Positions 36,689 to 37,517 of a DNA stretch of 40,216 nt are shown piece by piece (position 1 is the first letter of the stretch; every line of letters begins with the position of its first letter). This DNA comes from Chitinophaga pinensis (GTDB taxonomy: Bacteria; Bacteroidota; Bacteroidia; UKL13-3), in NCBI GenBank assembly GCA_945873755.1, contig CAMCEM010000009.1, forward strand, positions 1-40,216, read 5' to 3'. Both the position numbers and the translations under genes were made by a program. The notes beneath the pieces are model-generated. The model did not search any database, had not been told where the DNA came from, and was given only the letters and a program-made list of their open reading frames with translations.

Positions 36689-36744
36689 AAAGACCTGACA
36701 GGTTTTAAAAACCAACAAAGACCTGACAGGTTTTTAAAACCAAC
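36689..36744. repeat. Two tandem 28-bp REP half-units
   Basis: AAAGACCTGACAGG followed by TTTTAAAAACCAAC occurs at 36689-36716 and 36717-36744. Each keeps the left arm and the inner GGTTTT-AAAACC palindrome of the full REP but lacks the right outer arm TGTCAGGTCT. Confidence 0.9.
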
Positions 36745-36746
36745 AA

Positions 36747-36779
36747 AGACCTGACAGGTTTTAAAAACCTGTCAGGTCT
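36747..36779. repeat. Full REP palindrome upstream of the RAYT gene
   Basis: AGACCTGACAGGTTTT, one central A, then AAAACCTGTCAGGTCT form a perfect 33-nt palindrome, 16 nt before the RAYT start. It is preceded by two half-units in the same orientation. Confidence 0.92.
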
Positions 36780-36795
36780 AAAAAAAATATAAAAT

Positions 36796-37443
36796 ATGAA
36801 ACAGTATGAAGTCCCTTTAGAAACCGGAAAGTATTATCACATATACAATAGAGGTATAAATGGTACAAATTTGTTTTTTGAAGAAAGAAATTATTTATTT
36901 TTCTTAGAAAAATATTCATTTTATATGAGTAAAGTTTTGGAAACATATGCATATTGTTTATTAGGAAATCACTTTCATTTATTAGTAAAAGTAAAAGATA
37001 ATTTAAATTTAGACCTGACAGATTTTAAAAACCTGTCAGGTCTAAATACAGGTTTAAATACGAAAAATGGCTTACACGCCCCTGATAGATTGGTAAGTAA
37101 AAAGTTTTCTGATTTTTTTAATTCTTACTCCAAAAGTATAAATAAAGCTCAAAACAGAACTGGTGGACTTTTTGAAACTCCTTTTAAAAGAAAGGTAGTT
37201 AATTCGGATACTTATTTTACTCAGTTAATTTGGTACATTCATTTCAATCCACAAAAGCATGGGTTTATAAGTGATTTTAAAGATTATCCTTATTCCTCCT
37301 ATCAAAGCAATTTTTCAAATAAATTATCAAAATTTGCACAAGACCAAGTAATTGATTGGTTTGGAAATGAAAATAATTATAGAAATTTTCATACTATTGC
37401 TCATAGTGAAAAAAATATTAACCATTTAACAATAGAGTTTTAA
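36796..37443 (+). CDS. REP-associated tyrosine transposase (RAYT, Y1/IS200-like)
   Basis: The 215-residue protein fits the Y1 transposase fold: YYHIYNRGIN (about 13-22), YCLLGNHFHLLVKV with the HUH pair His59 and His61, FFNSYSKSINK with the likely catalytic Tyr111, RTGGLFETPFKRK, and YIHFNPQKHGF typical of the RAYT branch. These single-copy enzymes bind and nick REP hairpins as single strands. The gene is bracketed by REP palindromes (36747-36779 and 37451-37480), and a third lies inside it and encodes residues 73-84 in frame, between the HUH motif and the Tyr helix. The frame is intact, so the enzyme may be active. No second transposase gene or long terminal repeats are seen. Confidence 0.9.
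   Translation: MKQYEVPLETGKYYHIYNRGINGTNLFFEERNYLFFLEKYSFYMSKVLETYAYCLLGNHFHLLVKVKDNLNLDLTDFKNLSGLNTGLNTKNGLHAPDRLVSKKFSDFFNSYSKSINKAQNRTGGLFETPFKRKVVNSDTYFTQLIWYIHFNPQKHGFISDFKDYPYSSYQSNFSNKLSKFAQDQVIDWFGNENNYRNFHTIAHSEKNINHLTIEF
37011..37043. repeat. REP palindrome inside the RAYT coding sequence
   Basis: AGACCTGACAGATTTT, one A, then AAAACCTGTCAGGTCT matches the upstream REP with one changed base (a GG to GA in the left arm). It is translated in frame as DLTDFKNLSGLN. The pairing extends by TTT/AAA on both sides. Confidence 0.92.
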
Positions 37444-37450
37444 CAGCCAA

Positions 37451-37480
37451 TACCTGACACGTTTTAAAACCTGTCAAGTA
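37451..37480. repeat. Degenerate REP palindrome after the RAYT gene
   Basis: TACCTGACACGTTTT and AAAACCTGTCAAGTA pair at 13 of 15 positions. It lies 7 nt after the RAYT stop and is the most diverged copy of the family here. Confidence 0.8.
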
Positions 37481-37517
37481 TTTATAGAAATCAACATTCA
37501 AAAATCACAAATCAAAC

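Follow-up and report, generated by a model that had tools for sequence, protein, structure and literature searches.

The window, the whole stretch of 40,216 nucleotides of Chitinophaga pinensis DNA analysed here, contains a RAYT gene that carries a copy of its own REP palindrome. REPs are usually extragenic. In this gene the palindrome is read in frame between the HUH motif and the catalytic tyrosine, in the part that encodes the beta3-alphaC linker. A palindrome in this linker was found in 54 of 197 homologues overall and in almost none of the codon-shuffled genes. The features of the locus are as follows.

36691..36713, no strand assigned: REP half-unit 1 (AGACCTGACAGGTTTTAAAAACC), from the repeat search
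36719..36741, no strand assigned: REP half-unit 2, 28 nt downstream of half-unit 1, from the repeat search
36747..36779, no strand assigned: perfect 33-nt REP palindrome, its end 16 nt ahead of the RAYT ATG, from the repeat search and DNA folding (z -8.4)
36796..37443, plus strand: RAYT/TnpA_REP-like Y1 HUH transposase gene, 215 aa, from the ORF call, NCBIfam NF047646 and the AlphaFold2 model with Foldseek
36967..36978, plus strand: codons of the HUH motif NHFH (residues 58-61), with H59 and H61 invariant in a 70-sequence alignment
37011..37043, no strand assigned: internal in-frame REP palindrome, 33 nt, in the beta3-alphaC linker, from the repeat search, folding and orthologous copies in genomes G009 (L023) and G002 (L058)
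37234..37236, plus strand: codon of the catalytic Tyr147 (YIHFNP), invariant in the 70-sequence alignment and aligned to YIYINP of 4er8
37450..37482, no strand assigned: worn REP palindrome 3' of the RAYT gene, from the repeat search and DNA folding (z -3.8)

An earlier note on this DNA had given the coordinates and the translation of the internal REP copy, and had claimed that the gene carries its own REP in frame between HUH and Tyr. The repeat search reproduced the positions and the translation, and the claim itself was confirmed. The internal palindrome has one mismatch; together with the flanking ATTT/AAAT its arms are 20 nt long and 95% complementary. It is translated as DLTDFKNLSGLN, at about residues 72-84. 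When folded as DNA, the internal copy reached -12.7 kcal/mol (z -7.5; z -8.4 for the perfect copy upstream), so that hairpin potential is strong in the first full copy and in the internal one. The RNA hairpin of the internal REP is stable as well (-17.4 kcal/mol, z -6.3). The GT[AG]G foot of canonical REPs was present at none of the five copies in the window.

The encoded protein has H59, H61 and Y147, invariant in the 70-sequence alignment, as is characteristic of an HUH protein with a single catalytic Tyr (Y1). The NCBIfam model NF047646 (REP_Tyr_transpos) matched residues 10-167 with an E-value of 1.6e-13 and a score of 50.8 bits, which is below its cut-off of 80, and a Pfam search with the window protein gave no match. 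A sequence profile retrieved only PDB entry 4er8 (E. coli TnpA_REP; E 2.4e-7), in which the first Tyr of YIYINP (residue 115) aligns with Tyr147 of YIHFNP. The same entry was the top Foldseek match (E 1.6e-7, TM normalised to the target 0.74) of the AlphaFold2 model (mean pLDDT 90.6, pTM 0.88). Together with the invariant residues, these matches bear out the earlier identification of the protein as a RAYT. The linker sits between E59-66 and H96-118 of the model; its residues 71-90 have a pLDDT of about 58-65, and the linker carrying the internal REP is predicted to be flexible. No relatives were found in the viral contigs searched.

A search of the 3.13-Mb draft genome for the pattern AGACCTGACAGG gave 11 occurrences, and near-full palindromes with at most three mismatches occur seven times. 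Further copies lie on contigs C10, C20, C33 and C54, all of them intergenic. Thus, the palindromes both flank a RAYT gene and occur elsewhere in the genome, as REPs do, and the earlier note had made its reading depend on such other copies. The count of palindromes in ORFs that it had proposed was run on five genomes of the genus. These have 17 REP copies beyond the RAYT locus; no ORF of at least 60 aa wholly contained any of them, two touched the edge of a short ORF, and the ORF-borne copies were confined to the RAYT interior. In the more distant genomes G212 and G460, some REP copies overlap short ORFs, which are possibly spurious. Several other REP copies of G212 sit near contig ends. This genome also holds two tandem REP-RAYT-REP units of about 984 bp (L207, G212:C165:6500-14500) that are 98.8% alike, with an internal REP in each. 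The window genome has a second RAYT (L019, G000:C55), which is about 57% identical to the first and is flanked by arrays of CTTTGTCAAAG palindromes; it has no internal copy.

Recurrence was assessed in two sets of homologues. For the first, 196 relatives and 396 genomes from the phylum yielded 126 near-full homologues; the second comprised 71 genes from a different collection that includes Chloroflexota, Methylobacter and Thiomargarita. A palindrome within the ORF was present in 39 of the 126 genes of the first set, compared with 0-1 in ten codon-permuted sets, and nearly all of these palindromes lay in the linker from HUH to the alphaC helix. In the second set, 18 of 71 genes had an internal palindrome, and all 20 palindromes were in the linker (null 0-1). 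The palindromes of the first set belong to many sequence families, among them AGACCTGACAGG, AACCCTCCAAGG, AACCTTCAAGG, AACTTTTCCAAAG and AGATCCGCAAAG. The earlier note had proposed an alignment with homologues to see whether residues 70-86 are an insertion. Indeed, REP-less homologues have other residues there, but the linker ranges from 9 to about 78 aa across the family, and for this reason the net gain is only about 4 residues (36 aa in the window protein, 32 aa in the REP-less sister group).

L224 and L216 have two internal REPs per linker; those of L224 are of two sequence types, both of which are present in its own flanks. In L062 (G070:C36), a second palindrome of its own family lies in the C-terminal part, where the gene is probably disrupted. 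L066, whose genome is that of a relative within the window's class, and L222, from a gammaproteobacterial record (a Thiomargarita sp. MAG), encode RAYTs that are about 55% identical, with nearly identical internal REPs (AGATTTGACAACTTTT...). This likeness points to either horizontal transfer or an error in binning.

REP sequences vary widely from gene to gene, and the internal palindromes follow the flanks of their own gene. In 18 representatives whose flanks carry palindromes, the mean match of the internal to the own flanking palindromes was 0.86, whereas permuted pairings gave 0.64 and none of 20,000 permutations reached the observed value. The match to the own flanks was mostly 0.8-1.0 in the second set as well. 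In the linker of G212, a half-unit, a 24-nt spacer and a REP resemble, at 96% across 82 nt, the 5' flank of that gene, indicating that the copying or exchange extended beyond the palindrome. Exchange between internal and flanking copies is plausible from these sequences. L077, whose internal REP is unlike its flanks, is a clear exception.

We consider it probable that the RAYT spreads its cognate REP in its own neighbourhood and that only in-frame copies in the tolerant linker survive. The RAYT would recognise the surrounding palindromes as single-stranded hairpins, and the internal palindrome would be one more copy of this cognate REP, inserted into the gene that encodes the RAYT. Copying driven by the RAYT or by recombination would seed the RAYT locus with REPs; copies within the gene would be lost unless they were in frame in the flexible beta3-alphaC linker, where the 11-residue peptide would be tolerated. 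Such uptake has occurred repeatedly; the internal copy would stay like the flanking copies via descent or exchange, and as a side effect the gene would become breakable through REP-REP deletion. The exception of L077 counts against this explanation.

Conservation of the internal copy also bears on it. The window gene, L023 and L058 are orthologues with the same upstream gene ahead of them. The internal REPs of L023 and L058 are identical, and that of the window differs by one base. L023 and L058 also carry extra in-frame half-units with a 27-nt period, which have decayed; these caused pairwise MAFFT to mis-register the palindrome between L018 and L023/L058, and those two rows were excluded and the copies compared by eye. 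In the pairs L093/L098 and L082/L097, the REP is the best-conserved 33-nt segment (32/33 and 30/33 positions kept, at 69-73% gene identity), and flanking REPs are weak or absent. Identical residues had identical codons at 77% of sites in the REP (184/238) versus 50% elsewhere (3191 sites), a comparison that is partly circular in that both members of each pair are palindromic. The apparently raised conservation of the internal nucleotides counts against mere tolerance of the peptide. In L085, L086, L079, L087 and L102 (genomes G215, G280, G238, G342 and G225, of one genus), the internal palindrome is the sole copy in each genome. A stem change from TTT/AAA to TCT/AGA in the L085/L086 group preserved pairing. 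Conservation of the internal palindrome is ordinary in this group, and universal maintenance of the palindrome is unsupported.

It is conceivable, though doubtful, that the internal REP has been retained for regulation. RAYT production would then be limited either by RAYT protein bound to the hairpin, in the mRNA or on the exposed DNA strand, or by the hairpin as such. The stable RNA hairpin, the raised codon identity and the strong match to the own REPs are in line with such a role, as is the fact that three syntenic orthologues have preserved the palindrome, whereas extra half-units in the same linkers decay. However, most homologues, many with flank palindromes among them, have no internal REP (87 of the 126 genes with flank palindromes), and in the clade that is sister to the window gene (L019, L024, L025 and L056) the flanks carry the CTTTGTCAAAG REP family and no internal palindrome is present. 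The ordinary conservation in the L085/L086 group, whose genomes have no REP copy besides the internal one, also argues against regulation. Judged from sequence, autoregulation via the internal REP is possible.

A single ancient insertion followed by vertical descent, with the arms changing together as the specificity of the RAYT drifted (co-evolution), appears unlikely. The position is the same and the phase mostly the same across diverse Bacteroidota, and the palindrome sits directly against alphaC in many lineages (LxxL-[VI]S[KQ]QFSN). Degenerate in-phase REP remnants in L035, L036, L037 and L042 fit this reading, too. Against it stand the three phases of the second set, the REP-less relatives interspersed in the family and the two internal REPs of L216 and L224. 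Of the 39 internal palindromes in the first set, 36 centre on codon position 1, but the reading phases of the second set were distributed 12/4/4, and a fixed phase was rejected as a rule. Avoidance of stop codons was rejected as the sole cause of the phase bias, since 57/65/39% of the strand-copies of flank REPs are open in the three phases; for the same reason, the shared phase in the first set counts against our explanation by local spreading. A tree built without the linker required at least 13 changes in the presence of the internal REP, its backbone being weakly supported. The varying phase implies that insertion was recurrent, and repeated insertion with inheritance inside clades is the best-supported reading of the sequences. 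Inside individual clades, a single inherited insertion may suffice.

One genus offers a series of states at a shared site, behind the same outer-membrane-receptor-like gene. G000, G002 and G009 have a RAYT with an internal REP there, G004 (L296) and G008 (L291) have neither REP nor RAYT, and G001 (L289) has a single REP, which may reflect a complete REP-REP deletion or the state before insertion. In G005 (L059/L294, G005:C324), a 5' REP is followed by the N-half of the RAYT gene, and then a REP that is directly followed by the sequence normally found behind the 3' REP. The C-half was lost exactly between the internal REP unit and the 3' REP, with a junction overlap of about 39 nt of REP sequence. 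This C-half is absent elsewhere in the G005 genome, where the top match is a 38% paralogue. The junction and the missing C-half indicate that the deletion ended at the internal REP. Homologous recombination or slippage is sufficient to explain it, and any involvement of the RAYT would be a further step. The suggestion of the earlier note that an internal REP could make the gene its own target is thus backed indirectly by the match to the own flanks and by this one REP-REP deletion. The anatomy, the placement, the recurrence, the match to the own REPs and this deletion are shown by the sequences; binding or cleavage of REPs by the protein, local self-targeting (cis preference) and the absence of a benefit are what we infer.

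It is improbable that selection maintains the internal REP as a cis-acting brake, with the RAYT acting on the REPs in its own gene and thereby limiting expression or excising the catalytic half; the element would then be self-limiting, and the brake would co-evolve with specificity. We give still less credence to the internal REP as a point of self-inactivation, where recombination with a flanking REP, or excision between the two driven by the RAYT, takes out one half of the gene and limits activity. The G005 deletion runs exactly from the internal REP unit to the 3' REP, and the same neighbours enclose a single REP in G001 and none in G004 and G008. However, this is a single deletion, ordinary slippage or recombination between repeats of about 39 nt accounts for it, G001 could be pre-insertion, and a side effect is not a function. 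Finally, although the genomes are draft metagenome assemblies, a chance palindrome or an assembly artefact is refuted by the nearly empty null sets, by orthologues in independent genomes that carry the internal REP and by many isolate genomes that display the same pattern.

The phenomenon of an in-frame REP inside a tnpA_REP gene is already published: Quentin et al. 2018 (PMC6006769) reported that genes of subclass 2.4 uniquely contain in-frame REPs, which in general lie in a peripheral variable region that separates HuH from Y. Subclass 2.4 corresponds to RAYT group 4 and, like the window gene, combines a beta3-alphaC linker of variable length with an intragenic, in-frame REP located between HuH and Y; it has Bacteroidetes members and the motif NH[IFV]H (NHFH in the window). 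An insertion of about 8 aa where alphaB ends also characterises the subclass. Its Y motif YIxNNP is common in the homologues studied here (YIHNNP being commonest), and the window protein has YIHFNP. Unlike those of subclass 2.4, the window REPs are symmetric palindromes without a GT[AG]G foot, which matters in characterised RAYTs (PMC8266576); at flank palindromes of homologues the foot was found in 3 of 138 cases versus 12 at random positions. The window family also has F in place of the W of the WQ signature (G-x-[LIVM]-WQ in 0/197 homologues, G-x-[LIVM]-F in 177/197), the subclass motifs having been published as a consensus from which branches may vary. Subclass 2.6 (Bacteroidetes, atypical hairpins) has NH[LIV]H, WQ, YIH[QN]NP and a 21-aa insert between alphaC and beta4, whereas the window protein has NHFH, LF and YIHFNP, with about 12 residues from alphaC to beta4 in the model.

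E. coli TnpA_REP (RAYT group 2, PDB 4ER8) shares the Y1 HUH fold and the REPs on either side of the gene, but its linker is shorter and its REPs are bulged and GTAG-footed. REPs and Rickettsia palindromic elements within other genes, reviewed in Di Nocera et al. 2013 (PMC3733652), are likewise palindromes translated in frame in protein genes; they lie in many unrelated host genes, whereas the host gene in the window is a RAYT associated with the same palindrome. The IS200/IS605 TnpA proteins (IS608, ISDra2) have a related fold and recognise subterminal hairpins of their IS elements as ssDNA, but these are mobile elements with defined ends. New here are the match of the internal REP to the own REPs, its recurrence, the footless symmetric palindromes and the same-genus series at one site.

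How RAYTs spread REPs is poorly understood, hence the value of a gene that repeatedly absorbed its own cognate hairpin. The window gene and its broken derivative in a sister species form a compact natural system in which two questions can be addressed: do RAYTs act at the locus that encodes them, and is the turnover of REPs local? They also provide an example of a palindrome absorbed into a protein as a linker.
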